Positions 1-26,839 of a stretch of DNA of 64,000 nt are shown piece by piece. The notes below the pieces were generated by a model. That model made no database searches. It was given only the letters and a program-made list of their open reading frames with translations, and was not told the DNA's origin. Numbering within the stretch: position 1 is the first letter of the stretch; every line of letters begins with the position of its first letter. Position numbers and translations under genes: made by a program. Source of the DNA: Physcia stellaris (taxonomy: Eukaryota; Ascomycota; Lecanoromycetes; Caliciales; Physciaceae); NCBI GenBank assembly GCA_018902385.1, contig JABSSW010000074.1, forward strand, positions 1 through 64,000, in the 5' to 3' direction.

Positions 1-3000
1 CGTTTACGTATTTGTTGCGTTTTGAGCAAATGTTGCGTCGATCGAATGTGCATGCAAAAACAAAAAAAAAAAAACGACGAAACGTAAATGAAATATCGCG
101 TCAAACAATTCATTCATTTTCGACAACAAAAAAAACGCGCAATGAAACGAAAATCGATTTTTCATGCAATTTTGTGATAATCATTGACGACGATTATCAA
201 TTTATGCGACAAATACAAATTGCGTGCAATTTTTGATTAAATCAAATCGCGTCAATCAATTTTTTACGACGAAAAAACAAATTTGAAATTTGATACATCA
301 ATAGCATTGAACATACGCAAAAATCGTTGAATTGTTAACAAATACGAATTGATTTTGAATTGTCGAATTCGAAACTGAATTTCTGTTTTGAAAAATTTTT
401 TTCGCAAAATTGAAATGTTTTGAAAACGTTTGTACAATCAATCACGAATTACGTTGATTGATTGCGTGAATTATCGAAAAAATTTGTCGAATTTATTTGT
501 CGAAATAATTATCGACAAAATTGTTCATTAAATACAAAAACGTTTAAATACAAATTGATAACAAATCGTTTTCGAAAATGGCGTTAATCGAATGAATTAT
601 AACGTTGATATTTTGTCGTCATTGCATGAAATTCAAATTGGCGTTTGATAAGAAATTTGCATGCAATCGACGTTGATGATGATAATCGAATATCGTATCG
701 TGTCGTTGTTGATTTTTCAAATAAACAATCGTCGACAATTTAATTTCGATATAAAATTGAACGCGATATTGATCGAATATTTGATTCGTTGTCGACGAAC
801 GATTTTTTGCAAATTGATTTTGAATTCGTCGATTTAACGAATTTGACGAAAAAATAATTCAAAAATCACAATTTGCGTACAATGAATTAAATTCGTTCAA
901 TCAAAAAAAAAAAAAAATTTTGATCGCGATTCAAAATTCATTCGAATTAATCGCATGCAATGCAACAAAATTAATGATCGAACAAATGAAAATTGAATTT
1001 TTCAACGAAAACGAATCAAAATGTGCGACAAAATGTTGATTGTTTACATAAAAATTTCTGCACGCGATCGCAAAGTTGAAACGTTTTCGTTGAAAAAAGT
1101 CGTTCAATTTTCATTATTCAATTTTCATCGTCAGAATTTTCGTCGTTCGAAAACGATAAAATGTTCGTCGATCGAAAACATTTCAACAAAAACAAACGTT
1201 TAAAATTGATTGTTAGCAATAATTCAACAATGTTTTTGATTTCGTTAATTTGATTTGTCAAATCGAACAAATTCGTCAAATATCGAATTGTCAAAAAAAC
1301 AAATTTCGATATTTTTCGATAATTGAATCAAAAACAATATCAGATTGATTAGTGTGTCGTATCGTGTCATGTTGTTTTTGCACTTTTAGCGAAGTTTTTG
1401 TCGTTGTGCGATTTTTTCGAAAAAATTGAAATAACGTGCAATTTGTCGATTGATGAATAAAAAAATTTTGTTCGAAATGATTTTGTCACGAAATTTTATG
1501 AAATTTTGTTATATCGTTTGATCGATCAAATCTTTTTCTCGAATTAAAATGATGAAATCTGTGACATGCAATCAATTTTCATGTTATGTAAAATCGAATT
1601 CGACGAGTTCAAAATCGTCGTTATCGACATTAAAACGTATCGAATCGTCAACAAAAATATTTTTAAAGTTTTGAAATTCGACAACAAAATCGTCAAAAAA
1701 AAAAAACAAAAAATGAAATACGATAATGTAATGCAAAAAAAAAAAAAAACGAATTCGAAAAAATTGAAAATGCTTATCATTAAAAACTGTTGACAATAGA
1801 TTTTTAACGTTTTTTTTTTTTCAATTTCGTCATTCAATTGAATATGTTCGTAATATTCAATCAAAAAAATGTTTGATTCGCATAAACGTCGATTGAAAAC
1901 ATGTTGTCAAGCGTTTGATTTCATGTTGCGCAATTGATTTCGTATTTTTCGATTCATTTTCGTTTGCACGCGATTTGACATCGAAATGTTTGCATGTTGC
2001 GAATCGAAAAAATGAAAAAAATTTGATTATCGTTGAACGAAAAAAAGAAAAATTGAAACGCAACGCAAACGAGCGATATTCGCGAACAAAACAAAAAATT
2101 GTACGCAAATCGATTGCACGTCGTTTCATTGAGCGAAATTTTGTTTTGCGTTTTCGATGTCATGAGTCGAGAACAAATGTTTTCAATCGTACGTCGACTT
2201 TTATTGATTAATCGATTGTTTTCAAATAAATCATCGTATCGAAATTCGAATTCGATAAACAATTCGAATACACGTTCGATGTCATTGAATGAATGAATTT
2301 AACGAAAATCGCGAAAATCATGAATACGAATTTCGATCGAAATTGCTTGCAATCGTTTTTTCACTTTGTGTTGATTTTTAGATGATTTTCAATGATCGAA
2401 ACGAATACGCAATAATTATATTTTGTACAAACAAATAAACGAAATGAAAAATGATAATTGAAATTGCAAAATTTCATGTAAACGATCGAACGAAACAGCG
2501 CGAATTTCGTGATGAAAATTTAATGATTGAATCAGACGATTGAATCATTGTTGACAATCAACTCGATGTTTTGATTTTGACGTTAAAATTGTCGTTTCGA
2601 AAATGACGAATTGATTTCTAAATATTGCAAAAAGTAATGACGTATTTGATTAAATGCAAAGAAAATTTGCAAACAATCTAAAAAATGATGAATTCTCTGA
2701 GAAACGCTAAGTGATTTCTCATTAACATGCGAAATGACTAAAGTGATTTCATTAATCAAATTTCTGTCATCAATTGATTTTCTAGAGAAATCATTTCGTT
2801 TTATTGTTAGAATTTTGAATGTCGCAATATTACGCAATGAAATATTTTTCAACATTAAATGTACAATATATTATAATCAAATTTAAATTGTGAATCAAAT
2901 GTAAAAAAACATTTTCATAAACGAAATTATGATTTTATTTTGAAAATTGCGCTTGATATAACGAAATAATCGAAATAATTGAAAAATTTTTGAAATGTCG

Positions 3001-4499
3001 AAAATTTTGAAATTCGACAAAAATCATTTTAATCTGAATTCATTCAACAATATAATATTTGATGAAATTGTTATTATGTCGTTATAAAATTTATGTTAAT
3101 AAATTCGTATTCGTTAACAATTTGAACAAATACGTACATAATTTGTTATTTTTTAATCATATTAAATCAAAAATATTTACGTCGTACAATATTTACGATT
3201 TTTGTTCGTACAAAATGTTCAACATTTAAATTGTCGTGATTAAATACGAAAAATTTTTTGTTTTGTAACGAAATTTTTAAACACATAAATTGCGAAATCA
3301 CGACGAAACAATTCATTTTTTTCAACATTTCATTTCGAAAATTCGTTTTGTTTGTTTGTGTATTTTTGACGTCATTGTTTTTTAACAACAAAAACGTTTT
3401 TTGTTGTAATTTGAATAATCACGCAATTATTGATTTTCGCAATTTTAAATAAAATTTTTTCGATTTCATAATTTGATGAACTAAAAATCGAAATGCGACA
3501 ATGTTTAAAATTTTGCAAACACATTTATCGAAAACTTTTTCATTCGAAACAATATTTCGAATATTTGTTGTAACAATGTTACGCAATCGCGTTATCGATA
3601 TTGCAAATTTAATTAAAACAAACACACGTTAATCGTTTTGCAAATCAAATTGATAATTTTGATTGCGAAATTTGTTTCGCAAAATAAACAAAAATTTATC
3701 GTTGTTTTTGTCGTTATCGTTCGATTTTATAAAATCAAATTTTTTCGACGACGCGTTCGCAAAATTCAATTTGTTTTGCAATATTTTATATTGAAATCAA
3801 ACGCAATTAATTTTTCAATTCAACGAGTTTGTTTCGCATCAAATTTTTTGATTGTTATAAAATATCGAAAATTGTTGTAATCAAAAATAACGCGAATAAA
3901 ATGTTTGTTATTTTGCAAATAATGTTTTCAATTTTTGAAATCAAATATTATCGTATACAATTTTTGTCATGCGTATTTCAATTAATTTTTGCTTTTTGAA
4001 TTTGTAATTGAAAAACGCAATGAAATATCGTTAATCGTTTTTGTTTTTTTGATTGAACACATTATTTGTTTCGCGATCAAAAACATTAATTTTATGCGTA
4101 ATTTCGCTTTTCAATCATAATGCGTAAAAATAAAAACAATCGTGAATTTGATTTTGAATTCGTTAAACGCAATTTTAATTTTTTGATTATAACAAATGAA
4201 AAACGATTTTTTTTTTTTCGCATCACGCGTCAAATTTGTAAATGATGTTACGATTTACGAAAATTTTTTAACAAAACGTTTATAAAATTCAACAAAATCT
4301 AAAAAAATTATAATATTTTTCGCATTTTCGAATTTAAATCAATCGACGATTGCGTTTATACGCGAACGTTTCATTTGAATATCATTGCGTTCAACAACGA
4401 AATTTAAAAAATTGATTTTTTTTTTGTTGAATTCGCATTTTTTCAATTTGACATACAAACGATAACGTAATAACGTTTTAAACATTAAACGAACATGTT

Positions 4500-4884
4500 T
4501 TCAATGTTGTTATTTATTTTCAAAATAAATCAACATATCATTCAAATACATCACGCAAAAAACGTCAATGTATAATTTCAATGTTTCATTAACATAAAAT
4601 TGAAAAATAACAAAAACGTTAACAAAATCGAAAAACATAATTTGATATTCGTATTGTTCATAACGAATACGAAAAGCAATTTTTCATTCATTTTTTTGAC
4701 GAATACGAATTTTATGATACGCATTTCGAATGTTTATTTTGATAAAATATTTAACATTCGCGAAACGTTTTAACGTTTCAAACAATAACGACAATGAATA
4801 ATTATTTTTAATCGTGATTTCATTGAATTTTCGATAATTCACACATAAACGTAAATTGTCATTTGATTTTTTGACAAACAACAC
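4500..4884 (-). mobile_element. Fossil reverse transcriptase domain (Ty3/Gypsy)
   Basis: The best-preserved part of the fossil element. The minus-strand translation matches the fingers and palm of Ty3/Gypsy reverse transcriptase, including the region for template contact and the YxDD metal-binding box further on. This part fixes the family and the orientation of the element. It is degenerate and not functional. Confidence 0.8.
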
Positions 4885-5535
4885 AAATGTTTTCGCAAAT
4901 GCGTTGAAAAAACGAATTCATTTTTTCGTCAACGCGTTTTCGAAATAATTGCATATAACAATAAATTCGTTATGTGATATATTGTATATAAATTCAGAAC
5001 GCGATTTTTTGTTTGATTGCAAATCAATAACATGTTCGATTTGATCATACGTATTCAAATTGTTTAACAACGTTTTGAAAAATATTTCGATTATTTTTTT
5101 GATAATATCAAAAATGTGATCGTTGCGATTCATTTGTAACGTATCACAACGAACAGCATTTCGTTTTCGATATTGATAATTTTGTGTTAAAAAAAACATT
5201 TGATATAACATTGCGACATAAACACGATCGCGATTCGCAATAACAATCATAATTAAATTAACGAATTTTTTCGCAAAACAAAAATTGATTGAAATTTGTT
5301 TGAATTTTTCATAATTATTATCACGATATAATTAACGACGATCATGTTAACGAATGTCAAAATCGACAATATTCAATCATGAATATTCAAAAATCATGTC
5401 GTATTTACGCATGTCAATCGTTCAAAAATCAATATTTTGTTTTTTTACATGTTTTTCATTATTTCGTGTTATGATATGCACGTTTTTATAATGTTTATAT
5501 ATTTGAATTACACGATCGTCAACAATTTTTACACG

Positions 5536-5745
5536 TTATTTAACAATTTTTTTGAATTCAAACAATTGCATTTGTTTGACAAAAATTTGTGATATAAAAT
5601 TCGTTTCGACATCAAAATCAATCAAACAAATAATTGTTGTATTGTTTGTTTGCGTAACAAATGTTTTAATTGATAACGTGATTATCAAAACACGAAATTT
5701 ATTTCGTTTTAAATTTATTTTCAATGTTTCAACGACAAATATCAA
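5536..5745 (-). mobile_element. Fossil retroelement protease-like segment
   Basis: A short minus-strand stretch upstream (in element orientation) of the reverse transcriptase. It has the hydrophobic-Leu-Ile-Asp pattern followed by Asn-Phe-Ile-Ser that is typical around the active site of retroelement aspartic proteases. Its place between the Gag-like and RT parts fits Ty3/Gypsy order. Degenerate. Confidence 0.55.
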
Positions 5746-8341
5746 ATTCGTTTTTTTTTCGACGATTGATTTTGATTTTGATTGCGTTTTTTTTTGAATT
5801 TACGCATAATTTTCACACACAAAATCATTTGTTATGTGATTCGATTTGTGACATGAAAAACATGTGCGTTTTTCGAATTCTGAAAATACGAAATTGTAAT
5901 TTTGATTTCGATTTTTGTTTTTATTTTCATTTTGTTGATTTTGTTGCGATTTCGAAAATTGATTTTGATTGTTTTTTTGAACGTTGTCAAATTCAACAAA
6001 TCTGTTACGCGAAACTTTTTTGTTTTTATTTTATCGTCGTCATTGTCATTTTCGTGATTTTTTTGATCATTTTCATTATTTTGTTTTGTTTTCGTAACAT
6101 TGTTCGACGATTTATTTAACGTATTATCGTCGACAAACAATTGTTTCGCAATCAACAAATTGACGATTAATTTGAAATAAAAATCGATTTCATAATTTCG
6201 CATTTTTACACATTTGATACGAATAAAAACATGAATTTTGATCAACAATTTTTTTTGTCGTTTTTCGTTCGAAACGTGACGTTTCAATTTGTTTCACAAT
6301 TTGATTAAATATTGATTAAACGCAACAATGTTTTGTCGAAACAATTGTTTGACATTTTCAATAACAATAATCGTATTCATGACACGAATTATCGAATTGT
6401 TAAACAACGTCAACAAATAATTTTTATATTGTTTTTATGTTTGTTTTTCAAATTGAACATCAACATAATTACGTTATTGATTTTTTTTGTCGTCATCAAA
6501 AACGACGTCGATCAATTTGTTTTCATTTTTTTTGTTTGAAAATTAACAAAATCGAAAACGATATATTTTTCGCAATCACGCAATCAATTTTTCAAATTGT
6601 TTCAATTTTCATATTTTTGCGTGTTTGAAATTTTTGATCGTGCGATTCGTTTTTTGATATACGAAAACGAATTTTTATATTGATTATCGTTGTTGCGACG
6701 ACGACGACGATTTCGATCACGTTTCGTTTTTGTTTTGATAAAATACTTTTTATAAAAATATTCATTAAAATCGCTTAACGCGAATGATCGATCGAAAAAT
6801 CATGATCAATTCTGCGTTCGTGTTTTTTAAAATCGATTTCAATCAATATTTAATTCAAATTCTCAATGCGATAAATTATCGAATTTTTTTCGTTCAATTC
6901 AAAATTCAATTTGAATGCGAGAATTCGTACAGTTGTTTCGCAACTTGCACATCAATCAACAACTACATATCATTTTCATCTATTTAATCTCAATTGTAAA
7001 GCAGAATGAGCGCATTTCAACGCTGTAAAAATTGCAAAAATCGACTCATTATCGCGATAGTTATGAGATGTGTAAGATATTTCGATTGCTGAAATGTTCT
7101 GTTCGACTTGCGAAGACGATTCAGTTCTAACTCTGAAGATCTTTGACAGAATTTTTTTTAAAAAAATTTCGAATCTGCTTGTCAGAAATATTTTAAAATT
7201 ATTAAATTTTGATTCAATTTTTAACATTTTGATATGCATTTTCATTTGTCTGAAAATTATATTTGAATCGACAACAACAAACACAACGACATCGTTATTT
7301 GACGACAACGAAACAAAATTGTTTTTCGTTGTGTTTCATTTTGATTAAAATGCGTAACAAATATTGAATTAAAAAATTGATCAACATTTAAAATCAAAAA
7401 TTCGAAAATTGAAATATGTTTAATTGAAACGTCGACATTTTCAAAATCGACAAAATCATCGTTTTTATCGAAATTTTCGAATTGAATATTATCGAACAAT
7501 TCAATAATTCGATTGATAAAAAAAAACATAAAAAAATTGTTTGATGAAATGATGTTTGATTGTGATACAATCGATACGATCGCACGATCACGAATTTGCG
7601 AACGAATTTCGCGACGACGAAACGTATTTGTTGAATTGAACATTTTTAATCGAACAATTTTTGATGTAAAACAATTAAAATTGTAAAAATGTAAACATTG
7701 CGTGATTAAAATGTGCGAATAATAATATTAATTGTTATAATAAATGTTAAACACATAATAAAATTAATTGCTAAAAAAACAAAAAAATTCGTGAAATTTC
7801 GAATATATAAACACGAAATGCGACAATTAAATTCGCAATGTTTTAACGTTTGTTTGATCGATTTCGTTTCGTTACGAAAATTGACATCATTAATTCTGTT
7901 CGCGTTTTAACTTTACGAAAACATCAAAAAAAAAACAAATATCGCAGTTTTCGCAATACGAATGCATCGCATTTTTGCACATCACGAATCAAATCAAATT
8001 GTTGAATTTCGATGTAATATATGTAACATAAAATGATTTTTATTATTTGATTGAATTTAATGCAACTTGATGTTATAATTTTCATCGTGTTTGTTGATTT
8101 TTACAATGTTCGATTTTTGTTTATTATTCGATTTTGTCGTTCAACGTGAATTGAAAATGAAATCATTTTCATTCAAATTGAGAATATTTTACATACAAAA
8201 GAGAATAAATCATTCGAAATTTTTCAGAACGTGCACGTTTCGTTCGAAAAATCACACAATATCTTATATTATCAGATGAGTGAAATTCTGATCATCTGAC
8301 ATCAAGTTCTTAACTGTGAGAAATGTATGCGAAACTCTATC

Positions 8342-8353
8342 TTAGGGTTAGGG
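8342..8353 (+). repeat. Two tandem TTAGGG telomere-type units
   Basis: TTAGGGTTAGGG lies exactly where the AT-rich block gives way to normal-composition DNA. TTAGGG is the usual telomere unit of filamentous ascomycetes. Two units can arise by chance, so a former chromosome end or a repair scar is only a suggestion. Confidence 0.4.
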
Positions 8354-10310
8354 CGCGGGCAGGACTAATGGTGTCAGTCTCCGTACACAATGATACTATG
8401 TAGATTACAAGTACTTCGACATTCAAGAGGCGCCATTCCAAACTTCTAAACTTCTAATGAAGTGGTCAAAGGCCAGAACCAAGACGAAGTGGATGAAGAA
8501 TACGAATACCAACTGAGTCTTGCCCGCGTCCTCCGCTCCGAACCCGCTCTCGTGGTCTCGATCCTTCGCGTGAACCACCAGCTGTGCAATAATGGATGCT
8601 CCTCCCGCCTCTTCAGCAACAGATTATACTTCCACATTAGCCCTCCGCTAGTCTTTTTCACATCCCCCTCCCACCTCGCGATCGCGCGCACACCCGCCAT
8701 CTCGGCCTCGGTCAGATGGCTGCCACCGCAGATGACAGGGAGGTGCGGATTGTTTGAAAGGAAATGCACAACTAAATGCAACGAAGTCAAGAATTGAGAC
8801 GGTCGCGATCTGGGTGCCACAACACAAGAGCTGACGGCGCGGAATGGTTCCTCTGGCTACTTCTCGACGGGAGTATAGAAAGCGTGTGCCTCCTCTTCGC
8901 AACGAGTTATTCGGATTCCAATGGGAAGGATTCCATGGAGAAAATATTTGAGCCCATTACTTTGCCTAATGATAAAGTGTTGGAGGAGTTGTTTGCCGTG
9001 GATCGGGTGCTTTGTAGCAAACCGGGGACTAAAGAGAATGACGCGATGTGGAGGTAAGCATACAAGAACGCGGCTCCGGAAAGTGTTTGGGATGCTTACA
9101 CTGAAGTATTTGATAGAATTGAATGGAGAGGACGAGATTGCCGTTGAAGGTTGAGAGGGAGGATGGGGTTTGGGGGATGAGGGGAGTGTAGTTCTCTCGA
9201 GGATTGAGCGCTGAATCACTGGGCGCATTGTCATCCCTAGCTTCGGTGTACAATGCATTCACCGCATGTGGGAAAGCAGGGTTCGTACCCGTAGAGCTGC
9301 CAACATTCTGGGAGATTTCAAAGAGCATGTGGATATTCATCTCTCAATGACCTTGGCGCTTCGGCAGCCAGGCTACGCTCTCCCTGACTGGGCGAAACAT
9401 GCCAGAAAGGTGGCTTTTGCCGGTTCTGGATCTATCAGTCACGACATTGCCCTACAGCTGGGGTAGCCACATCGGAATGTGAGGCATCGAAAGGCGGACT
9501 AAGCTATGATTTCGCCAACTACATCACAGCCTCCACTTACTCACTTCGAGTAACAGCAGATTCCCCTAACGTTACCTGCATGTATTACCAATCAGACTGC
9601 CGACGGGAATCCGGACAATCCTCGACGTATTTTTGTGGTATACGGCCTTCTGGACCGGCTTTTGAATATTTTACGGAGCCAAATTGGTCGCGCAACCCCA
9701 GACTCCCCACAGCCTACGGTCCTCAAACTTGTGAGGGGAAGAAGTTACGGCGGAAGCTGCGGAAGGGGCTCTTGGACGTGAGAGGCATGCTTCAGATGAT
9801 ATGATTACTTGGCATCCAATCAGCACCCAAATTCGCAGGTAGGCTAGGCGTTTCGAGCAATCATTTTTCACTATTCGAAGGTATCGCAGCCAATCTACAT
9901 TCCATTAGCGACTTTGCCAGATATGGCGTTCCTCTTCTTCTGGCCAGTCGTATTCGACTTCATCACAACCAAAGTCCTTAAAGCAAAATCCTCAGAGCTT
10001 CCCCGAGATTAAACTTGTAGATGTGGATCAAGCTGCCGAAGGCCGGCCGCTCTTCTTTTCATCATCTTTCAAATACCACATATTGTTGGAAGCCAAAGCA
10101 GCGATCCGCTCCGAGGAGACTGCAAGGCTGGAGCGATGTCACATAGCCTGTTACGGGACCCATAAGATGTCCTGAATGCTGACCGCTCCAAGGCGTTAAT
10201 CCATGAAAGTCTGTGTGTACTGACACGCAAACGCCGGGATTAGCCATTGACTGTGAATCATCGTGGAAAAGCTATAGATCTGGCGAAAAGACTGGGGAAA
10301 ACTGATGATC
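8354..10310. other. Gene-relic region, no confident gene
   Basis: Normal GC content, but only short open frames of about 60-130 codons on both strands, with no clear family. Possible coding scraps are 8921-9058 (+), 9266-9466 (+) and 9470-9800 (+). The last is an open frame rich in Ser/Cys/Tyr. This stretch should hold the copper-binding half of the tyrosinase whose C-terminus lies just downstream, but I could not find the paired histidine motifs. It may therefore be the decayed front of that gene or unrelated debris. Confidence 0.4.
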
Positions 10311-10317
10311 ACAGCAT

Positions 10318-11344
10318 GAAAATCCTATATCCTTTGCACTGGCGCGGCACTTGTTTTAATTGAGAATCAATGTGTTTTCGCTGTCCCGGGAACAAAAGGC
10401 GTAGACCCCCGGGAGGTGACAGCATACATCAATAGTAATTATCATTGGATGTCAACCAGAACGGCTCCTCCCGCGGACCTCGGATTTCCTAAATCAATGG
10501 ACACCGTTGAACCCTTGATTGGAAAGAGCAGCGCAGCGTGGAACCACAAGATGAAGATCAAAGCCATTGACGCAGAAAACTCAAGCCTTATGTCACGTAC
10601 CCTTGCAGCCCCTACCGAGAATCAGATCATTAGCGACCGCCCCGCTGTTTCGGATCAAGGGATAACATTTAGAGATAAAACAGCCTTTCCAAAAGGGGCC
10701 TTGGAAGGAGCCACGCAGCGAACATGGAACATTCACCTCAGCGTCCGGAAATGAGTGCCCTCTTATTTCCTCCTTACCGAAGATATTTGTAGTTCTCACC
10801 TAAAAACCAGATATGCCTTTGACGGATCGTTTGAGATCAATGCCTTTCTCGGTGATGTCGATGATGACGCAGCAGACTGGTATATGCTACTTGAGAACCA
10901 AATTGGCTTTAGCGGCATCTTCGCTAGTCACCAAGAAGCGCCCTGCACAAATTGCAAGGAGAAACGCACCGAAGATATTGTCTATGGCGACGTTAACCCA
11001 CTCACTACGTTCCTGGTTGGCTGTCTGAAGAGCAATACATGGGCTAAAGGGCCCCCAGAGAGCTTGAAGGTTCTTGAAAGTTTGGAGCCGGATCAAGTCC
11101 GTCCCTTGCTGGAAAATCGACTAAAATGGCGCATTACCGCCGTGAGTCCATCATCTTGCCTTTCCAGAGATACCCTTTCCAAAGACTACTGACCGTATGT
11201 TTTACCTGTAGGCCGGTGGCATTCCCAAGTCTATACAAGAAGTCAGAGACTCCGGATTAGAAATCAAGGTGATGGACCGTTGGTATCACTATCCTACCGT
11301 CGAAGAACCCCTTGGATGGTACGAAGAACCACAATTGCATGTGA
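10318..11344 (+). pseudogene. Tyrosinase C-terminal part (probable relic)
   Basis: Three exon-like pieces (about 10318-10750, 10811-11141 and 11213-11344) encode the C-terminal domain of fungal tyrosinases, the copper monooxygenases that oxidise phenols to quinones (melanin, browning). Recognisable features are the FDGSFEI strand, a C-x-x-C pair in the TNCKE region, and the ESLEPDQVRPLLENRLKWR stretch that caps the family. Upstream lie the VTAYIN helix and a linker. The intron between pieces two and three is a normal GT-AG. The one before it (10751-10810) restores the reading frame and ends in CAG but starts with ATGAGT, as if its donor GT had become AT. The copper-binding N-terminal half is not recognisable. 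I therefore favour a decaying paralogue; a divergent functional gene is possible. Confidence 0.55.
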
Positions 11345-11599
11345 GTATAACACGTGGAAAAGTTGGAGGCTTTTCCGGATAGTGAAGTGCTGAAACGGGA
11401 TTGAATCCTCAATATTCCACATCCTCTCGATGCAGTAAGTAGCAAAGTGGAGAAGACCCTGCTGCTAGATTGATTATAATTTGTTTTTGGTGTGGATAGG
11501 TTAGAAATCAGATGAGGATTCGCCGAAGCACCGCGGTTCGCCTGCGTAACGAAGATTGCGATCAAAAAATGGGTGCTCAAGTTAATTCATCCGTTTTTC

Positions 11600-12490
11600 A
11601 TCATGCAATGTCAGGCCAACACAACAATCAAAACTACAAACCACGAAGATCGTTCTATCCGAAAGTTTTCACATTTTCGGTTTTTATGCGCACTCCCCTC
11701 AGCGGCGCGCAATGCTTGCAAAGCTCAACGCTCTAGCGTTCAGCTTATGATTATATACCTAGCTGTATCAACCTAGTCTGGCGATTCCATTAGATGGATC
11801 TTGACCAAGCCTAAGCTAATCCATCACGTCAGAGACAGATAGATCAGATTCTCTGATACTTTCGATATGGACTTTAACAAGCGGACGTGGCTATCCGAGA
11901 CGCGTACCCAAACCAGCCTTCTATCTGGAACGAAAAGCTGATTCTCTCTCGTATTGTAAAGCCTTGCAAATGCTTAGCATTGAATCCCTTACCTATCACA
12001 CCTGATGATACTATTCGTTGGCTTTTGTGGTCCAGGCCTCCCCATGTTCGAGCTCTATCAACTGGTCTGGTTCGTGGGATATCTGGATTGAAAATCAGGG
12101 TCTGGGAACGCTCCCAAACGACGAATCTGGAGATCAATCCATGGAAGCACGGGAAAAAGATCTAGGTGAGGTCGTCTTCACGAAATTTTACAAGTAGAAG
12201 CATGACAGACGTGCAGAAGTGTTAGCGACATAATCGTCTATTGTTCTGTGTTGAGCCAAAACTCGATTTCACCCGATCTGAACTATTCTAATCCTGGAGT
12301 TGAGTTACTGCTGGGTCATTTGTTATCTTCCAGCCTGCCATGATCGGCAGAGATGAGCTCGTTGGTCTGATAAAGCTATTAAACCTTTCGCATTGCCAGG
12401 TCAGGCGAGATTGGATTGCATCTTGAGGCATTGGGGTACTAAAGGGAAATTTGAGAGAGGGTTCAAATTGTCGAAACGAACTTTTGTCTG
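11600..12490. other. Intergenic, nothing supported
   Basis: Only short open frames on both strands (for example 11887-12165 plus), none with a recognisable family or a convincing intron structure. Confidence 0.5.
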
Positions 12491-12494
12491 GGCT

Positions 12495-13970
12495 CTATCT
12501 TATTTGAACCATGCCATCCCTAGACTGACAGCATTCAGGTGCGATATAAGTCGCGTTGCAAAGACATTCAACCTGAGCGTTGTGATGATCAAGCGAGCGA
12601 CCGAATACTGACGCGAGGCTTAAACATAAGGCAGCTGACGCAACAGGGTCGACACCCAGCGAGTGAGCTTCCTGCGTTGAGGGATTCCTACAAAGACAAT
12701 CGCTACCGCATTCCGAGTTGCTTTCACATTTATTGCCGCACTGCTTGTTCTGATCCCAATTTGGCGCAGGTGGTTGTGGAAGAGCAAGCTCTGCGACTCG
12801 ATCTGGTATAGGGCCCATAATATCAGTCAGCCAAGGTATCGTGCAGGTTCCAGGATTTGTGGCATTTGCAATACATTGTGCCGCTGGCTGGTTTGTTCCT
12901 GAAGCAGAGGTCTTAATATTGCCCTTCGCATCTGTGGAAGATCCTAGAGGATTGCGGTTTCCTTTGGCTATTGAAAGACTATCTGCCGGCATCCTCGCGA
13001 GTATCTCATCCCACATCGGGATCAGAGGGTCATTGTAATTAGCCTTCTTGGATCGCTGGACACAGAGACAATTTTTCCAACAGTGGAAACGGAGAGACGC
13101 GGTAGTGAGGAAAGTGCCGTACGAATGCCATGTCCAGTCCCATCGCGGCGTCATATCTTCGGCGAAGGCGACCAGCTTTCCCAGGTTTCCATCACGGTGA
13201 CAATATCCTCCAGCATTAGCCGCCGGGTTACCGCCCGATAACTGCACAGCGCAGAGCTCTTGGTTATTGGCAAACTCCGCAACATTCCATGGACCGGCAA
13301 GGTCGAAATTAGGCAAAGGTCCACCACATTCGATCATGTTCGCGGGCAGAATGCCTACGTCGCTTCCTCCAGACTGACTGGGAGCATACCCCGGAGCGTT
13401 CATCAAGACACGCGTTAACAGGTCTGGCTTTGCCCAGCCCGCAGGGCCTTTATGTTCCATTGAGATTGAGATTGCCCGTCCTTCGCTCGGAAGTGGTCCA
13501 GAAAATGTCTTCCGAGTAATCGGGACCCCCTTAGGCTGCTCGGTGATCTCCCGGCTTAGATTAAGTCGATCGCGACTACAGAAGCATCGACTCCTACATT
13601 CCAACAATGATCGAATATATCTCAGGCCGTGGGGTCGCCTCCTTTGCGAGGAACCCCATAGTTCAAAGGCTACATCTCCTCCCTCACAATAGCCGCCAAG
13701 ACTGGGGACAGCCGGCCCTCTGTTGTGCGATCCGAATCGGGGTTGAGCGCAGTGATATTGCATAGAGCCGGGTTGATAGTAGTCAGCCTCGACAATCCAA
13801 GATATATCGGAGCGTGCACCAAGGCATGTGATGTTGTATCTAGGGTCAGGCCTGCTATGCAAGGGGGCAACGTTGCGGGCATCTTGGCCGCTGGTAAATT
13901 GAATGTCTGGTGGAGGGGCTACACGAACTGCTTCTGATGCGCATGCAAATATGAACAAGAGACTCAGCAT
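12495..13970 (-). CDS. Secreted orphan protein with two cysteine modules
   Basis: One long intronless frame. It opens at 14042 (515 codons), but I prefer the ATG at 13970 (or 14009) because a hydrophobic signal peptide, MLSLLFIFACASEA, follows directly. I do not recognise the family. The protein holds two modules with the same cysteine layout. Numbered from the 14042 start they are C73, C98, C119, C149, C153, C155 and C239, C264, C281, C321, C325, C327: the first gap (25) and the final C-x3-C-x-C are identical, and GGYC is shared at the third cysteine. Near residue 435 a compact C-x3-C-x5-C-x3-C-x-C run resembles a knottin-like domain. It is likely extracellular and disulphide-rich. It could be an effector or cell-wall protein; no enzymatic motif is seen. 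Confidence 0.75.
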   Translation of the reverse strand: MLSLLFIFACASEAVRVAPPPDIQFTSGQDARNVAPLHSRPDPRYNITCLGARSDISWIVEADYYQPGSMQYHCAQPRFGSHNRGPAVPSLGGYCEGGDVAFELWGSSQRRRPHGLRYIRSLLECRSRCFCSRDRLNLSREITEQPKGVPITRKTFSGPLPSEGRAISISMEHKGPAGWAKPDLLTRVLMNAPGYAPSQSGGSDVGILPANMIECGGPLPNFDLAGPWNVAEFANNQELCAVQLSGGNPAANAGGYCHRDGNLGKLVAFAEDMTPRWDWTWHSYGTFLTTASLRFHCWKNCLCVQRSKKANYNDPLIPMWDEILARMPADSLSIAKGNRNPLGSSTDAKGNIKTSASGTNQPAAQCIANATNPGTCTIPWLTDIMGPIPDRVAELALPQPPAPNWDQNKQCGNKCESNSECGSDCLCRNPSTQEAHSLGVDPVASAALCLSLASVFGRSLDHHNAQVECLCNATYIAPECCQSRDGMVQIR

Positions 13971-14049
13971 CCTGAATGAAGGCGAGACCTCAAAGCTGGA
14001 TCTACACATCTTTAAATGACGACCATCGCTCCACATATGCAAATTCTCA

Positions 14050-14865
14050 ATTCACCTTATAGCTGCCAATACTTTGCCCGAAATAGCACGGAAGGGGAAA
14101 CGAAACATACAAGCGGATCTTAGCTTCGGCATATCGATAATTTATGTGGGTGATTTCCGTCGCTTATCGCATGACTGCGTGAAACTTGCGACCCGAGACA
14201 CTTTTCAGTCACCAACCGTGAACCTTCATCGTGAGGTGCGTACTGTACATATTTGGTGATGGGTGACTTAATTGCCAGGCAGCTCCATGACAGAGCGATC
14301 TATCAATTGATCAATATGTGGTGCGATGAGCGACGAGAGAACTAGTGGTTGAAACAGAGGGAAGAGGAAGTACAACCAGCTGATGTAGAGGCAAATCATT
14401 GTGTACTGATGCATGGTTGGAGCCGATGGATGAATGAGCTCTACAGTCATCGTTGAGTTCGCGGTCGCACATGATGAGAACGGGATAATTATCACTTCCT
14501 CAATGCTACTCAATGTTTGCCGAGGAGCTTCTCCATCACGCGCAAGCGATATGAGAGTATCAAGCGACTCATGCGCGCACTTATGGAACCATACCGCGCT
14601 TCTTGGGTCCCTTCTCAAGTCGCTGCTGATCCACTCAATATTGATTAGAGTTATTGATGTTCATGCAAAAGGATTCCAAGGATCATTCGCCCCTGATGTT
14701 TAAGTTGATGACAATGCTACTTGGGGGAGATGCTACGTAAAGCCTCTATCAGAGGACCATCAAAATCGCATGTACCCGCTTACCTCTCAGCTCCTATTCC
14801 TCTAACATCTTTCATCTACCTCTTTCCTGACGCTCTCCCCAGTCCACCGACCCCCGCCTATCCTT
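14050..14865. other. Intergenic, promoters and short ORFs
   Basis: Lies between the start of the orphan secreted gene and the 3' end of the next minus-strand gene. A 116-codon minus-strand frame (14268-14618) has one hydrophobic segment but no family resemblance; I do not call it a gene. Confidence 0.4.
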
Positions 14866-14869
14866 CTAT

Positions 14870-15876
14870 CTACGCAGCCACAATAGCCCCGTTCTCACAC
14901 TTCGTTCCAGGAGCCACACTCCCGAAATTGATCAATCCTCCCTGGTCGCAGACCATAAAGGTACTTCCATCGCTCCCGCACTGTAAAGACCCATCCGGGC
15001 TGCAATTTCCCTCGTTATCAGCGCGGATCCGGTTCTCCGCGGCATCGCAGTAGGTGCCTGGAGCAACATCGCCGAAATATACGTTTTGCGTGCTGCCGTC
15101 CGCTTCCGATACGCAGTAGCTGAAGTGTGCGGAGTCGTTGCAGCAGATTGCGTTGGGTGTGCATGGCGTACTGCAAGGAGTGGGTGTTGCGGTTGGAGTA
15201 GACGTCGTGCTTGAGGCTGTGGATGAAGAGCTGATTGTCGTCGTTGAAATTGACACGGACGAGCTTGATGATGTCGTGCTTGAGGCTGTGGATGAAGAGC
15301 TGATTGTCGTCGTTGAAATTGACACGGACGAGCTTGATGATGGCGCCAATTGGCGCAGAAATGCTGCGTCCAAATATGTGGACGGTTCAATGTCGGACAC
15401 CATGTAATGGATGTAGCAAGAGCATGAGCCATCAGCACCGGTACATTTACCCTGGTTGGGGCCATCGGCCCAATATCTAAGTCTGTTGTCAGTACTACAT
15501 GATGGCACTTGCAAGTGGAGAGAATTCGCAATTGGAGGAGAGAGATTCTAGGAAAATAGACTTTTTTGCTTTTATCCGTGATCGCAGCAAAGCAAGAAGC
15601 AATTTGTTCAGGTTGGACTTACTCAACTCCAACGCATTCCAGGTTCCCGGGGGAAGCCGTGTAAGCCGAACAGAAATCGATACATGCGCTGAAGGTATTG
15701 GGCTCGATGTTCAGCGCGTCAATGCGACCACTGAAGCTAGTATTGCACGCGATTTCGTAGGTATCGCCCCGTCCGTCGATGTACGTCGCTCCATTATCTT
15801 GAGGGCAGCTCTGACCAGCTGCTGTAGAGACAAGAGCTGCGAGTACTGCGCCGGCGATGCTGATTTTGAGCTGCAT
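14870..15876 (-). CDS. Secreted WSC/PAN-like cysteine-rich protein
   Basis: Two exons, 15876-15623 and 15482-14870, with a clean GTAAGT...CAG intron of 140 bp whose removal joins the frame (E-L-R-Y-W). The protein is about 288 residues. It has a signal peptide ending near AAGQS, then an N-terminal domain whose six or more cysteines (ACIDFC, LECVGVE, GKCTG, SCSC) recall WSC/PAN modules of fungal extracellular proteins. A Ser/Thr-rich linker follows, and then a C-terminal cysteine-rich part with two FG.VAPGT-type repeats (YFGDVAPGTYC and NFGSVAPGTKC), each closing with cysteine. The linker contains a 69-bp tandem duplication. The architecture suggests a glycosylated cell-wall or carbohydrate-associated protein. 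No catalytic residues are evident. Confidence 0.75.
15207..15344 (-). repeat. 69-bp tandem duplication in the Ser/Thr linker
   Basis: Two consecutive, nearly identical 69-bp units (starting at 15207 and 15276) encode two copies of a 23-residue Ser/Thr-rich peptide in the linker of the secreted protein. The unit is a multiple of three, so the frame is kept. Near identity suggests a recent duplication or length polymorphism. Confidence 0.85.
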
Positions 15877-15879
15877 GAT

Positions 15880-16840
15880 GAGTCTGTGGACTGAGCTTGT
15901 GGGCTTTCAAATACTAGGATGTTACAGGCTTTCAAATGTCGAGGTATGCCGGAAACTCAAGAGCTGAGAGTTTGCCTGATGTTTGTGGACGTTTGTTTCG
16001 ATCGTCGAAGGGTAAGATCAGCAAGTGAGTGTGGAGAAGTGGCTTGGATGACTAGGCAACAGAATATAGGTCTCAGTATGTGTAGTCAACGAGTATTTGT
16101 TGAGCCAGCTGTTGAGGATTTTGCACGCCACAAACTTAGCAGGCCAGAATCATACATAGAGGAAGACTATGTAGAGCGCCTAGCAGAGTACTTATAAACA
16201 TATTCATGCTCTTCGTGACTAAGCAGAACTGTGCCGAGTTTCTTTCAGCCCCGGATGCTTTTAATCGGCTTTTTTTGGATCATTTCACTCATTCTCGAAG
16301 CTGCCGTTCCTGGATGTTTGGAGACTCGCTTCGGTAACCGAGGACTTGGCGGGTCTGATATTCTGACTTTCCAATTTTTCCATTCAGCGTGTCCGCCAAA
16401 AGCTAAACCGAAACTACAGTCTCCCAGTCATGTCATTTCATGACTACCTCGTTGAATGATACAGGAGATTCATTCGCGGTTCTTCTTTATGAATCGCTTT
16501 ACTACGTTTTACTAGTTATCTTTCTCTTTTCTCATCATCATACTCCGTCGTCATTAATGGTGGCTGAAGTAGTAACGATTGTGATGCAGTTATTTAGCAA
16601 TGCTGCAACGCATGTAGCCCAAGAGGGCAAAGTTGATGTTTGCAAAGAAGCGGAGTTAATAGAGCATGGCTACAAACCCAAGTAACACCTCAAATGTACT
16701 CAAATACAGAACTTTCAACGGACCGCCGACCGTTATGGGTAAACCCTAAATCTAATCCCCCTCATGAGTAAGGTTAAGGCCAAGGAAACGGTAGGAGTGG
16801 GTGCATTCTGCTAGCTTCCACTACCAGACAACAGGCTTGA
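15880..16840. other. Intergenic, nothing supported
   Basis: Upstream region of the minus-strand secreted gene. Short open frames only. Around 16740 a GGGTAAACCCTAA stretch has a single telomere-like CCCTAA unit, probably by chance. Confidence 0.4.
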
Positions 16841-16844
16841 GATC

Positions 16845-17324
16845 GTGGTTAAATTTTTACAACTGATAGTTAATCAGGTCCAGGCCAATGTCAAGAACCA
16901 TGGGCATTCAACGCCACTAGCTAGCCTGCTAAGAATGAAATTCGAGGCATGGCTAAGTTTCTTAATCGAGTTAAAGCAAGCCGGCGCCACTGCAAATCCC
17001 TTTGGAAAGAACGTGCCGTTTGGCCTTACCAGAACTGGGGTTGCGAGTGTTATTAAGCTGCTAAGAGAAAAAAACCCATGCCAAAACCAACGCATAATAC
17101 GCTCTTGGTGGAATGACGTTATTGAAAGCTGTCAAAAAAGAGGCACGCCATGTAGTCAATTTACTTCGGGAGAGAAAAGGGGCGATGCCGGACCCCCAAG
17201 TTGCGGTCAGCTAGACACATCTGTCAAATGGTGTACAGAATGGGTAAGAAAGTGCTCAAAATTCGCAATGAGTGTGCTAGCCAAAGCTCGGGTAATTCCA
17301 GACCTGAGCACGACCATTGATTGA
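16845..17324 (+). CDS. Hypothetical protein, 159 codons (doubtful)
   Basis: An uninterrupted plus-strand frame with an ATG and normal amino-acid make-up, mildly basic, with several cysteines in the second half (SCQKRGTPC, PSCGQL, WCTEW, RKCSK). No signal peptide, transmembrane segment or known family is visible, and no neighbouring exon was found. It could be a real small orphan gene or a chance frame; its length alone is weak support. Confidence 0.3.
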   Translation: MVKFLQLIVNQVQANVKNHGHSTPLASLLRMKFEAWLSFLIELKQAGATANPFGKNVPFGLTRTGVASVIKLLREKNPCQNQRIIRSWWNDVIESCQKRGTPCSQFTSGEKRGDAGPPSCGQLDTSVKWCTEWVRKCSKFAMSVLAKARVIPDLSTTID

Positions 17325-17329
17325 AACGG

Positions 17330-18205
17330 ACACGATGGTAGCATCGGCGCAGTGATTCATGACAATGACTCGATCGCTGAGATCTAAGATTTCATTGAGA
17401 TAGTAAGCCAGCACAGACACTGAGAGAGGGACGAGATGCTTTGGTTGAATACTACTGAAACTAAATTTAGAAAAAGAGGGTCGAGGATCGGTTGGCTTGC
17501 ATTGAAGCTGAAGACCAGCCAAAGAGGGTGAGACAGTTATTGAGAACTGGCATTGCAAAGCTTCGCTAAAGAACTCAAGATTACAATAGACCTTGGGTAC
17601 ATCGGATGATCTCATCCGTACACACTCATTATTGACACCATTTACATCGTCGAGAAGACAGAAACCATTCAAGGACCTGTAGCACGAGATTCAAGAAATG
17701 CGGTCAACGACATCCCAAGACCCCCTGTCTATCCTTACCCATTCCTCATTCTCCGCCTTTGTTCGCTCAAATTCGCTCACATTCCACTCCACCATTCGCA
17801 CAGACTAGAGCAGCCCTCAATCAGATGTCTCGCGATGCACTTAGCCTTTGCTCCGACCACACATAGGCCATGGATCACGAACAAAGATTATAATTAGGCT
17901 AGGACGCTATCCCATGTGTCCTGAAGGTTTGAGGCTGGCTTTTATTCTCTTCTCTGCTTCTGATGGACTGCTGGAGAAGAGAAAAATGACTCCTTTGGTG
18001 GAGTTAGGGATGTGGTGAGATTGTGGAAATGATCCTTGTGCTTGTATTTTTAGACATTTGAGGCCTACCTTACGGTTCGAAGCTGTCGTTGTTTCCCTTT
18101 CGGCTCTGCTACTGTTTTTCTTGCCTATGGTGTGGAGTTGAGGAGCAAAGACGCAGAATGACTATCATGAGTCGTCCTCTATACCACCCCTGAGAGCCTT
18201 CATCT
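17330..18205. other. Intergenic, nothing supported
   Basis: Open frames here are short and of odd composition (for example 17277-17672 minus). The part next to 18.2 kb is probably the 3' flank of the defensin gene. Confidence 0.4.
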
Positions 18206-18222
18206 ATCACCCGCATTCCTCC

Positions 18223-18486
18223 TCAAACAGGACAAGTACAAGCCCACGAAAAGCCCGAGCCCGGCGAGCTAGCCCTTCCACAAACGCCCCTCCCGCTGCA
18301 ATGGTTGTTGCACTTCTTCTTCGTGGCATAAATGCCATTGACGCATGCCCTCTCTTCCAAGGTTGCTGGTTCGGCAATCGGATTGGACTCGGCAAAGCGT
18401 TTGACCAAGTCTTCTGGGATTGAAGGGTTCGGAGCCGTGAGGGCGAGGCAAGCAGATGCCAGAAGGGTGGGGATGAGGAATTTCAT
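18223..18486 (-). CDS. Plectasin-like defensin precursor (CS-alpha-beta)
   Basis: An 87-residue intronless precursor. Residues 1-17 form a signal peptide (MKFLIPTLLASACLALT). A prosegment follows with Lys-Arg at 29-30 and ends at Glu-Arg 45-46, a dibasic-type maturation point. The mature peptide of about 41 residues has six cysteines at 48, 59, 63, 69, 83 and 85. The spacing C-x10-C-x3-C-x5-C-x13-C-x-C carries both hallmarks of the CS-alpha-beta fold, C-x3-C (CNNHC) and C-x-C (CTC). The fungal defensin plectasin has the same x10 and x3 spacings, a CHNHC core and a final C-x-C. Such peptides are secreted antibacterials that bind the cell-wall precursor lipid II. The fold is a strong inference; lipid II binding here is inferred only. 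Confidence 0.8.
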   Translation of the reverse strand: MKFLIPTLLASACLALTAPNPSIPEDLVKRFAESNPIAEPATLEERACVNGIYATKKKCNNHCSGRGVCGRASSPGSGFSWACTCPV

Positions 18487-18489
18487 GGC

Positions 18490-19840
18490 GAATGCGTACT
18501 TTGAATTAAGCCTTCAAGGCCTTGGCAGGGTAATTGTTCGAGAATAGATTGAGCTTTGATGCTTCTTGCTTTTGATGCAGTCTAGTGGAGCAGCAAAGTT
18601 TGGAAGAAGTCTTGTATGAAGTGGTGGTCTGTCTCTGGGGAGGAGTGGCTCTTTGTAAGCTGTTCTGAACGTTGAGCTGGTCCAACGATAAGGTCGCTGG
18701 GGGCGAATTCTGATCGCTTCGTGAGATGCTAATCATCGTGCCTCCTAACGTGCATTAGGTAGGATTCATCATCTCACACTACATCCTCCAGCTCCTTGGT
18801 GACGAATACTTGAATGTCCAATAAGGAGCAGAAACTCTGATAGGCGGTATGATTTTACCAATGCTTGTCTACTTCTGCACTGCTCTTACTTATGCATGCC
18901 AAGGTGTGGAGTAGCCCACCGTCCTAGCTCTATCCTCGCTGAAGAGCTTCTTAGCCCCCATAAGTGAGCGTGGACAAACGCCAAGCTCGGGCTGAGCCTC
19001 CCCCAATCCAAAGTTCCTACTGTGCACTGTACGTTCGACTGCTTTGGCTTTCTGTTTGGCACAATGCTTCTATCTCTATGGAGCGCTTGAGCCTTTGCGT
19101 AAGCGTCCTGTCCATGAATGGCCTGCAGAATCCGCAACCATGTCCGGATCCCGCCGTGGAATTTTCAGTAGGTAGGGTTTTTGCGGAATGAGTGCTGCTT
19201 GGCTGAATACGATAAAGGTAGGTATCCAGCGTTTCCGCATCTGATGTAGGCGATGGTAACGAGGGACATAGAGCTCTGAAATTAATGAAGGTTGAGGAAC
19301 AAAGGGTGGAAGGGTAAGAGAGTTTGACACTGATTGTTCGAGGCCTTGAAATAAACGAGAAGAGGGGAATAGGTGTCGTGCCTGGATCCTGTGATCTGTT
19401 TTTGTGGCACCAAGATCTGTTGCTGACGAAACAATTGGGTATTTATCGTGAAGAAAGTATGTTCAGGGAAGTATGAAGGCGAAACAGGCTCTGTGATCCT
19501 CCCCCTGAGACACGAGGAATGTGGAGATTAGCGAAACATCGCCATCCGAGCACGACTGTCTTGGCCATGTTGGAGCGGTCGTGAGCAATCCTCACAGTAT
19601 CTTGGTGGGAGGAATTGAAGACATCTGACTTGACATAGCAGAGCAAGTTGTATATTGCATTGTCATCAACTGCCAATATCATATCCATATATGTGTAAAC
19701 GCTTACTCGGTCATCATGCCTATTAGAGCCAGTAGTACAAGCCGTTAACTTCTCAACCGTACTCACTTACCCTCCAAACCATCCAGACAACCTCTGAGCA
19801 ATCCTGTTCCTACCTAGCAATCATGAATACCTCGGCGAGG
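18490..19840. other. Intergenic, nothing supported
   Basis: The upstream region of the defensin gene and the 3' flank of the laccase gene. Only short frames with no recognisable family on either strand. Confidence 0.5.
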
Positions 19841-19843
19841 CCC

Positions 19844-22332
19844 TCAGATGCCGGAATCATCCTGGAAAAAGGTGACATTCGCATCCCACAAATTCGCTGG
19901 GTTACTGAACCACTTGTCCCACGTCCGGCACCCATCCTCCACAGGCTTCAATCTCTGCGGCGTCATCTCCTTCCGCAAGTCCGCTTGCCGCTCTAAGATC
20001 TGCATCGCCAGCCCTGAAGATGCGTGCCATGCGATGTGGCAATGGATGAGCCAGGAGCCTGGGTTGTCGGCTTTGAAAGCAATGGCAACGAAGCCGTTGG
20101 CCGGGAGCAACACTACGTCCCGGCGGGGTGGATTATCGAACTTGAGTTTTAGATTCGTGGGGCCAGTGAGATTGAGGGTTTGGTTAGATTGTTGGAGGAT
20201 AGCAAAGTCGTGGCCGTGGAGGTGGATCTGGAAGTTTTTTTGTTAAGATTTACTCATCACCGAGGGCAAGAGGGACGACTAAGGGACGACTAAAGGGGCA
20301 GGAGAAGTGGGAAGCAAACTTACAGGGTGCGCAGCAGGGATGGTTCTGCGCGCGCTAGGAGGTACGCCGGCCGCGGCTCCCCAGATGAGGAGATAGATCC
20401 AAGAGTCCTCGGGGAATGGCTTTGGAATGACGACATAGTCGGGATTCCATTGCTTGTTGTCTAAGTTCAGAATTGTGGGGTCGCTGAAGTTGAGATACAG
20501 GTTCTTGGGCCCGATTGCCCAGCGTACAAAGGGGTCGTTTGGCAACGGCTTCCCTTCGCCCTTCCCCGGGGTATCAGTGCCGACTGCGAACCGCTCTTCA
20601 TTTGGCACTGTAAGATCTGTGTAACTGTCAGCATCAAGCAAATACAATACAAGCAGATTCTGCTGTCAGCTTACTAGAGATATCCACGGGTTTAACCGTC
20701 CAGCCTGATGAAACGATAGGCTGCAGCTTGTCGTACGGTTCATCGCTGCATGCAATGCTGTAACTGCCTCGAGCGGTGAAGGGATACACTGTGCTATCTT
20801 TCTTGTAATATACGATACCCTGTCTCTCATCAGGTATGCCTCCGAGCTGGAAGTTATGGCATCCTGTTGCTGCAATCGTGCGCATCCAGAATGCCTCTCC
20901 AAGATTGGCAGATCCAGTGGGAGATCCGTTGACGTAGTTCTTTGGATTGGCTTCTACAACGACGTGATACCGCTGACCTATTGATGGTGAGCGGTTTCGT
21001 ATTAGGATAGACATCATTAGGTTGCGTACCGATGCCAACGACGACATGATCGGTCACATAAGGGCGAATCGGGACAAAGTCGCTGCTCATGACTGTGATG
21101 TTGTGATTGTCGATAGCAAAGACAAAAGTAGTATCAACGGAGGTGTTTATCAATCGGAGCAGATATTTTTTCCCTGTAAAATGCTGTCAGCGTCTGATAG
21201 GCGGTCATGTCTTGTCAGGATTGCCGTACGCGTTCGAAGGTAGTATTATACTTGAAACCCTGTCTTGCACCTCCGGCATAACTGCCTGCAATTCTTAGCC
21301 ATCGTACATGTGATCACAAGAGGCAAAATACCTTGTCCATTGAGTAAAATGCTGTCCATGTTTGGTGGCCGCCCATTGAGCTCCACTTGGAAGTCCTGGA
21401 AGCCGCTTCGATGGTTCCAGTCAGTCATCAGTATAGGATCCTTCGGCTCGTCATAATTTGCTGAGGATGGTCCGTGGATGGTCAAAGGGCCCGCCATGCC
21501 ATCGCCATATTGGAGCGAGTAGTGACTATGATACCAAGAGGTGCCATATTGCAAGGCTCGGAAGCGGTAGGTATACGATTCACCAGGAGCAATAGGGCAC
21601 TGTGTGACGCCATTGACTCCATCCATTTCAAGACTGTGGAGTTGGCGGATCCCGTGCCAATGAATTGTGGTGCCGTTGAAGCTCAGATTATTCTTGACGG
21701 TGATTTCTGCAGGGACGGCGTTAGCAAGACTCAGACACGAAACACTCTAGAATCCCTTACCTAGAGTATCACCCCAGCAAGCCTCTGCAGGATGTTCAGT
21801 CAGACGACCAATTTAGGATAATTGACGGGTAACATACGAATCCAAGGACCTGGATATTGATTGTTGAACGTCTTTCCGAACGGCATGGGGACGCCATCAG
21901 CATTGATGTTCGACTCGTCGGCAGTGATGGTGTACTGTTCGATTTACCAGTAAGTCACTTTAAATACTTCCTGAAGTCAAGAGGAGTACTGACTTTTCGA
22001 GTGATGCCAGTAGGAGCGCTAGTTTCATAGTTCGTGTTGATGTCGAAGCGCTGTCCTCCAGGACCAGCAAGCCAGCATGTCCTATCTCCAGGCGTCGAAC
22101 ATGAAACCCATTGATTTCCCATAGGCGAGTAATCACATTGTAATACCTCGTCCGGATTTTGAGGGTGGGATGGCGGATCAAAGACTGGGCCACCCGCTGC
22201 AATGTAGGGTGCCTCAATTCCCAGATCTGCCTGCATTACATGCTGCGATTCAGGCTGATTCAGCGTCGGAGAGAACGTGATTACATTGAAGAGCTCAACG
22301 AGAGCTACCCAGCAGTCTTTGAGAAGCTTCAT
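19844..22332 (-). CDS. Laccase (multicopper oxidase), nine exons
   Basis: Laccases oxidise phenols using four coppers and reduce O2 to water. I model exons 22332-21994, 21934-21838, 21784-21761, 21706-21332, 21285-21230, 21173-21030, 20977-20675, 20617-20324 and 20227-19844. All junctions are GT-AG and the sum is 2016 nt (671 residues). The four copper-ligand motifs are present in order: HWHG and WYHSH (exon 4), HPIHLHGHDF (spanning the last intron), and HCHIAWH (exon 9). The C-terminus ends DSGI, close to the DSGL/DSGI tail of ascomycete laccases that plugs the trinuclear site. The N-terminus is longer than usual, and its signal peptide is weak from this start, so a different first exon is possible. 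Exon 3 is only 24 nt. Confidence 0.9.
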
Positions 22333-22339
22333 GGCAACG

Positions 22340-25460: not shown

Positions 25461-25467
25461 GTCGTCG

Positions 25468-26830: not shown

Positions 26831-26839
26831 GGTGCAATC

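Follow-up and report, generated by a model that had tools for sequence, protein, structure and literature searches.

The first 64,000 nucleotides of contig C74 (JABSSW010000074.1) of the lichen fungus Physcia stellaris, here called the window, begin with a block at positions 1 to 8343 in which C followed by a pyrimidine (CpC and CpT, together CpY) is strongly depleted on both strands, and C followed by A or G is retained. Comparison of intact with mutated copies of two reverse transcriptase (RT) families from the same genome revealed a C-to-T mutator that is directed at CpY and associated with repeats. We consider it probable (about 0.82) that this genome carries widespread, repeat-directed hypermutation of the kind produced by repeat-induced point mutation (RIP), in which CpC and then CpT are converted on each strand, with CpA and CpG mostly spared. 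Four findings go beyond the original prediction made from the window: conversion is stronger and sets in sooner at CpC than at CpT, the pattern is widespread in the genome, DNA transposons are included, and the mutated DNA appears to extend a few hundred bases beyond the repeat.

Dinucleotide composition of the block

The window is part of an assembly (GCA_018902385.1) of 43.97 Mb in 147 contigs. In positions 1-8200, CpC and GpG together occur twice (mean 280, minimum 237 in 500 mononucleotide shuffles), and CpT and ApG together occur 106 times (mean 792, minimum 731 in the same number of shuffles). Retained in the same interval are 1047 CpA plus TpG and, with both strands counted, 990 C in CpG. 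The ratio of CpY to C before a purine is 0.05 in the block versus 1.03 in positions 9001-64000, where the GC content is 0.49. Runs of at least 150 bases free of CpC and GpG are found within the 64 kb only at 1-579 and 641-8344, the latter being the longest. Ordinary composition returns from about 8344, giving the block a sharp edge. A recount of 3601-3900 gave exactly the numbers reported earlier (19 CpA, 19 CpG, no CpC, no CpT, one ApG, and no GpG), as did a recount of 3601-3660 (4 TpA, 7 ApT).

When all CpY in the ordinary DNA of the window are converted, the resulting dinucleotide frequencies correlate with those of positions 1-8200 at 0.996; ordinary DNA saturated at CpA instead correlates with the block at 0.258. 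The GC content predicted by CpY saturation is 0.242, and the observed value is 0.262.

RIP is usually described as having a CpA preference, and common tools use CpA-based indices. TpA/ApT is 0.45 in 1-8200 versus 0.69 elsewhere in the window, and (CpA+TpG)/(ApC+GpT) is 1.35 in 1-8200; the RIP hallmark of a raised first and a lowered second index is absent from this interval. With thresholds taken from the available part of PMC7882544, none of 16 one-kb windows in the block was flagged, and the anticipated blindness of the TpA/ApT index to the block was thereby confirmed. Hypermutated DNA of the kind found in 7 of 20 random samples (see below) is scored as untouched by CpA-based indices.

Substitution spectrum of intact and mutated copies

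Columns that are already T in every copy are invisible in an alignment; we therefore sought intact copies. In an RT search, the best 150 of 527 candidates were scored and listed, and ten of these 150 matches were stop-free. Two RT families contain both intact and mutated copies. For family A (reference L036), the best 40 of 208 candidates included two intact copies; the 29 copies fetched from the remaining 38 were all mutated. Family B (reference L035) had 18 matches, one of them intact; a partial match was omitted, which left 16 for the comparison. The three intact copies, L035-L037, have an ordinary 51-53 CpC and 60-65 CpT in about 480 bases, and the possibility that unmutated copies share the low CpC and CpT was not borne out. 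Two of them, both near-unmutated, are located as follows:

G000:C5:1166521-1166997, RT copy L036
G000:C12:60312-60788, RT copy L037

Relative to L036, the 29 family A copies were changed at 1392 of 1444 CpC sites (96.4%), 1290 of 1731 CpT sites (74.5%), 107 of 1877 CpA sites (5.7%), and 17 of 1390 CpG sites (1.2%). Relative to L035, the 16 family B copies were changed at 767/787 CpC (97.5%), 802/915 CpT (87.7%), 74/1068 CpA (6.9%), and 39/927 CpG sites (4.2%). Expressed as log-rates relative to CpA, change is 51-57 times higher at CpC and 23-29 times higher at CpT. T and A sites were rarely changed (per copy, 0-7 of about 250 in family A and 0-9 of about 230 in family B). A CpA preference, a usual but not universal feature of RIP, was not found in families A and B: CpC and CpT dominate among the mutated sites of the aligned copies. 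As originally predicted, the polarised spectrum of both families is that of a C-to-T mutator acting on C when a pyrimidine follows, with CpG and CpA spared.

CpC loss amounts to at least 88% in every mutated copy fetched from the two families, and CpT loss lies between 44 and 100%. The three family A copies with the lightest load had 88-92% of CpC versus 44-49% of CpT converted, and 0-2 of 252 T/A sites altered. The influence of the 5' base and of the second 3' base is modest: the fraction changed is lower for GpCpT (0.62 and 0.82 in families A and B, respectively) than for CpCpT (0.85 and 0.93). Both strands were altered, with CpT changes on each strand in 45 of 45 fetched copies.

Spectra obtained with partly mutated references agree and are noisier. 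With L048 as reference, L051 was changed at 8/9 CpC, 36/53 CpT, 9/60 CpA, and 5/40 CpG, and L052 at 9/9, 37/53, 4/60, and 5/40, respectively. L046 compared to L039 was changed at 12/20 CpC, 25/45 CpT, 7/46 CpA, and 12/62 CpG.

Structure of the block and alignment of its element

The block and its surroundings consist of the following parts:

1..8343, CpY-depleted block at the start of contig C74, with CpC and CpT converted on both strands
1..2809, repeat R1, a family of unidentified type truncated by the contig end; CpC 2, CpT 52
2810..3056, 247-bp dispersed repeat with 9 further matches
3057..6754, minus strand, RT element, first part; at least 29 other copies or part copies as loci
6755..7181, nested insert belonging to another small repeat family; CpC 0, CpT 30
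7182..7879, minus strand, RT element, second part
7884..8343, flank in which a DNA search found no repeat; CpC 0 throughout, CpT increasing toward 8343
8344..64000, DNA of ordinary composition, the unmutated control, with a photolyase gene among others

Eight other copies match most of the length of R1 at 86-92%, and fragments were found in addition. The RT domain of the element (4399-4872, minus strand) is interrupted by two TGA and one TAA. The copy search with this element scored the best 40 of 485 candidates, and its copy number is a lower bound. The pattern spans two repeat families, the 247-bp repeat, the nested insert, and about 460 bases without a repeat match, which excludes codon bias, as had been argued for these 8 kb from the sequence alone. 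The earlier statement that C is followed only by A or G holds for CpC, which is nearly absent from the block; CpT is depleted rather than absent, as seen in 6755-7181 and 8151-8343. The block edge at 8151-8343 has 16 CpT and no CpC. More CpT in the insert and at the outer edge, without CpC, is expected if CpC is lost first, and the composition of the insert would fit a more recent insertion in which mutation is less complete. Two TTAGGG units lie where the mutated block ends (8342-8353); they may be a telomere-like remnant or a chance occurrence.

The RT element was aligned in 30 rows, consisting of the window copy and 29 loci of which some are partial, and columns with at least 20 rows were counted. 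The 354 C columns that never change precede G (244) or A (110); none precedes C or T. The 429 changing columns before T have a median of 93% T, and the 21 before C a median of 97% T. The median is 10% T both for the 376 changing columns before A and for the 247 before G.

Distribution across the genome

Twenty samples of 1.2 kb were drawn at random, weighted by length and without regard to copy number, from 40 of the 147 contigs. Seven were AT-rich and wholly free of CpC, one was mixed, and 12 were ordinary. GC content was below 0.36 in 22 of 60 sub-windows, and all 22 had a CpC count of 0. Among the fetched stretches L035-L124 with a GC content below 0.40, 60 of 72 had no CpC. The ten DDE_1 transposon stretches comprised one of ordinary composition, seven without CpC, and two partial cases with 21 and 8 CpC. 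Repeats are targeted and single-copy genes spared: the repeats of the block are mutated, together with about 460 bases of flank that lack a repeat match, versus ordinary composition in the other 55 kb of the window and in 12 of the 20 random samples.

Effect on coding sequences

In five intact fragments, no single CpT change creates a stop codon, and CpC changes give as many stops as there are Trp codons. TGG is the only codon in the examined frames that readily turns into a stop, so that inactivation is expected mostly through missense changes. In the mutated copies, 29 of 32 stops in family A and 28 of 35 in family B arose from TGG to TGA, and no copy was stop-free. The 150 listed RT matches contain 250 TGA, 33 TAA, and 3 TAG stops; the 10 DDE_1 matches contain 44 TGA and 3 TAA. 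Targeting of CpY thus alters the effect of RIP on genes. If its specificity has indeed been switched, RIP would kill elements here mainly by missense and Trp-to-stop changes, leaving CpG-dense relics.

DNA methyltransferases and possible mechanism

DNA methyltransferase homologues had been proposed as a check. A genome search with PF00145 gave four matches, which we read as three genes: one DIM-2-like and two RID-type (RIDa and RIDb), one of the latter in two matches. The RID-type genes are:

G000:C6, RID-type methyltransferase gene (L001)
G000:C5, RID-type methyltransferase gene (L003)

For the DIM-2-like gene, the best structural match by sequence is 9bap, a DNA cytosine-5 methyltransferase, which we take to be Neurospora DIM-2. 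The RID and DIM-2 labels are based on domains, the 9bap match, and known family features, with no named RID in the set. Among best hits, the relatives of the two RID-type genes differ in length (about 400-520 versus about 750-1040 residues).

The methyltransferase phylogeny was calculated from 82 sequences, chosen from 314 retrieved together with the three found here, and is to be read with caution with respect to long branches. The two RID-type proteins fall into separate clades (support 96/89 on the RIDb side and 98/99 for the main RIDa clade), and Heterodermia has one member in each. Two of the 34 sequences from the RIDa search, P0274 and P0275, are outside the RIDa clade. The tree does not single out the acting enzyme; RIDa, RIDb, and DIM-2 are all candidates.

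The best reading of these data is RIP with an altered target specificity, presumably acting via one of the three DNA methyltransferases. Repeats would be recognized by homology during the sexual phase; RIDa, RIDb, or DIM-2 would read a pyrimidine 3' of the target C, or, on the other strand, a purine 5' of the paired G; and the target C would become T, either directly or through 5-methylcytosine. More tentatively, we suggest that a RIP methyltransferase, of which one of the two RID paralogs is the most likely candidate, switched its reading of the 3' base from adenine to pyrimidine in a lichen-fungal lineage, with CpC taken first. The genome, which encodes all three candidate methyltransferases, may offer a natural specificity variant in an enzyme family of unsettled chemistry.

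Evaluation of alternative explanations

Several observations weigh against repeat-directed hypermutation as described here. In the alignment of the RT element, 55 of the 376 changing CpA columns and 102 of the 247 changing CpG columns are mostly T, with C kept chiefly in the divergent copies L031 and L033; these columns may reflect older divergence or slow change at CpG and CpA. CpC loss is incomplete in L039 (20 remaining), L048 (9), L118 (21), and L122 (8), and L104 is the mixed sample. The RT copies L036 and L037, which are 97% alike, have open frames and are largely unmutated beside dozens of mutated relatives. From L036 to L037, changes are found at 2/51 CpC, 0/61 CpT, 2/65 CpA, and 0/48 CpG; from L037 to L036, at 5/53, 3/65, 0/61, and 2/52, respectively. 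These C-to-T differences lean to CpC and CpT, and L036 may therefore itself bear a light CpY load. The flank at 7884-8343 is mutated although a DNA search gave no repeat match; this is probably leakage of the mutator a few hundred bases past the repeat, but DNA searches can miss diverged repeats, and the flank may still be an old one. Among the 18 copies analysed for strand use and clustering, some are unevenly affected, keeping more CpT on one strand than on the other (Fisher p 2e-7 for L019 and 0.001 for L014); mutations are clustered in L014 and L027, but their placement is otherwise mostly close to random. L060 was changed at 29/34 sites on one strand versus 11/26 on the other. The bias in L019, L014, and L060 hints at strand-wise action within single events. 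The evidence comes from one genome, and RIP in the strict sense, that is, triggered by homology, premeiotic, and dependent on a methyltransferase (RID or DIM-2), is a likely conclusion that we infer.

Methylation of silenced repeats at CpC and CpT, a mark similar to methylation induced premeiotically (MIP), could also have been followed by slow passive deamination over generations. A fungal review (PMC13297926, available in part) describes methylation by DIM-2 as largely outside CG and favouring CpT, and a DIM-2-like gene is encoded here. The partly mutated copies L039, L048, L118, and L122 fit such decay, as does the light change between L036 and L037, in which 8 of 10 C-to-T sites are at CpC or CpT. 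Slow decay should, however, bring more background change than is found in L050, which differs from L036 at 81 of 109 CpY sites but at 1 of 247 T/A sites, and even the least mutated fetched copies of families A and B have already lost at least 88% of CpC. We consider this explanation disfavoured and unlikely. Editing of retroelement DNA by an APOBEC-like cytidine deaminase during reverse transcription would account for dense C-to-T changes and for the retroelements among the affected sequences. APOBEC-type editing is known to act on one strand only and on elements with an RNA stage, and APOBEC enzymes are noted for their 5' context. Here both strands are changed, DNA transposons and the flank are affected too, and the 3' base decides with a modest effect of the 5' base, which makes such editing very improbable. 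An APOBEC_N search gave no match, nor did it give any control match, and hence provides no evidence; other deaminase families were not searched.

Two further possibilities are refuted by the spectra. An inborn scarcity of CpC and CpT in the elements or in AT-rich DNA, without mutation, would suit a pattern common to the AT-rich samples; intact relatives in the same genome nevertheless have ordinary CpC and CpT, and mutated copies differ from intact ones almost solely by C-to-T changes at these sites. Classical CpA-directed RIP, misread through base composition, could draw on the RID-type and DIM-2-like genes and on the slightly greater change at CpA than at CpG (5.7% versus 1.2% in family A). 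Yet CpA was converted at 6-7% of sites versus 96-97% for CpC, CpA-saturated DNA resembles the block far less than CpY-saturated DNA (0.258 versus 0.996), and classical RIP would have raised TpA/ApT, which is 0.45 in the block versus 0.69 in the remaining part of the window.

Comparison with known systems

The papers cited in this section were available in part, and statements about them are limited to those parts. As in Neurospora crassa, where RIP depends on RID and DIM-2, Physcia exhibits dense C-to-T changes on both strands at repeats, with genes spared and short leakage, and RID-type and DIM-2-like genes are present. The Neurospora order, however, is CpA>CpT>CpG>CpC (PMC5496416), whereas in Physcia it is CpC>CpT>>CpA>CpG; the last site in Neurospora comes first, and its first site is nearly untouched. 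Trichoderma reesei shares C-to-T changes in duplicated DNA but differs in that CpC comes last; for crosses of this species, the passage prints "CpA~CpG CpT>CpC", with a sign apparently lost (PMC5496416). In Magnaporthe oryzae, Botrytis cinerea, Sclerotinia sclerotiorum, and Anisogramma anomala, CpT is prominent and RID-type genes are present, as here, but CpA is the first or second target in each (PMC4352252, PMC10998396). The term CpC is absent from the text of both papers; PMC4352252 reports CpA, CpT, or CpG signatures in ten genomes. In RIP-capable control species, CpT predominated (PMC7882544), and a 2025 survey of 1,239 species, with lecanoromycetes named in a legend, concluded that a CpA preference is shared (PMC12543289).

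Hypermutation in Basidiomycota (CpG, TpCpG; Rhizoctonia solani AG8) likewise changes C to T in a non-CpA context. In AG8, CpC changes are the most frequent CpN class in a table of the spacing of single-nucleotide polymorphisms (SNPs), and the text stresses CpG; the SNPs lie between nuclei, in genes and repeats, without repeat saturation, and in Physcia CpG is spared (PMC4014442). The lecanoromycete Cladonia rangiformis has RID and DIM-2 homologues and large, sharp-edged mutated regions, as found here; its mutated DNA, however, has 10-20% GC, below the 24% predicted for CpY-saturated Physcia DNA, and the terms CpA and CpT are absent from the text (PMC12542154). The P. stellaris genome paper (46.57 Mb, 184 scaffolds, GC 43.32%, culture from ascospores; PMC7513301) does not contain the terms "RIP" or "repeat-induced" in its text. 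We found no report of CpC-first or CpY-directed RIP in the open-licence literature, as far as its text was available.

The CpY preference is close to the reverse of that measured in well-studied fungi, which is why standard RIP tests see nothing in the Physcia repeats. If RIP is directed at CpY here, it escapes CpA-based indices, and strong mutation may have gone unnoticed in lichen genomes that received low RIP scores.

Other features of the window

The unmutated part of the window contains a DNA photolyase gene (33888-35645, minus strand) with FAD_binding_7 and DNA_photolyase domains. Positions 52001-54000, also ordinary DNA, exhibit a strong strand asymmetry, with 108 and 93 CpC versus 31 and 41 GpG per kilobase.

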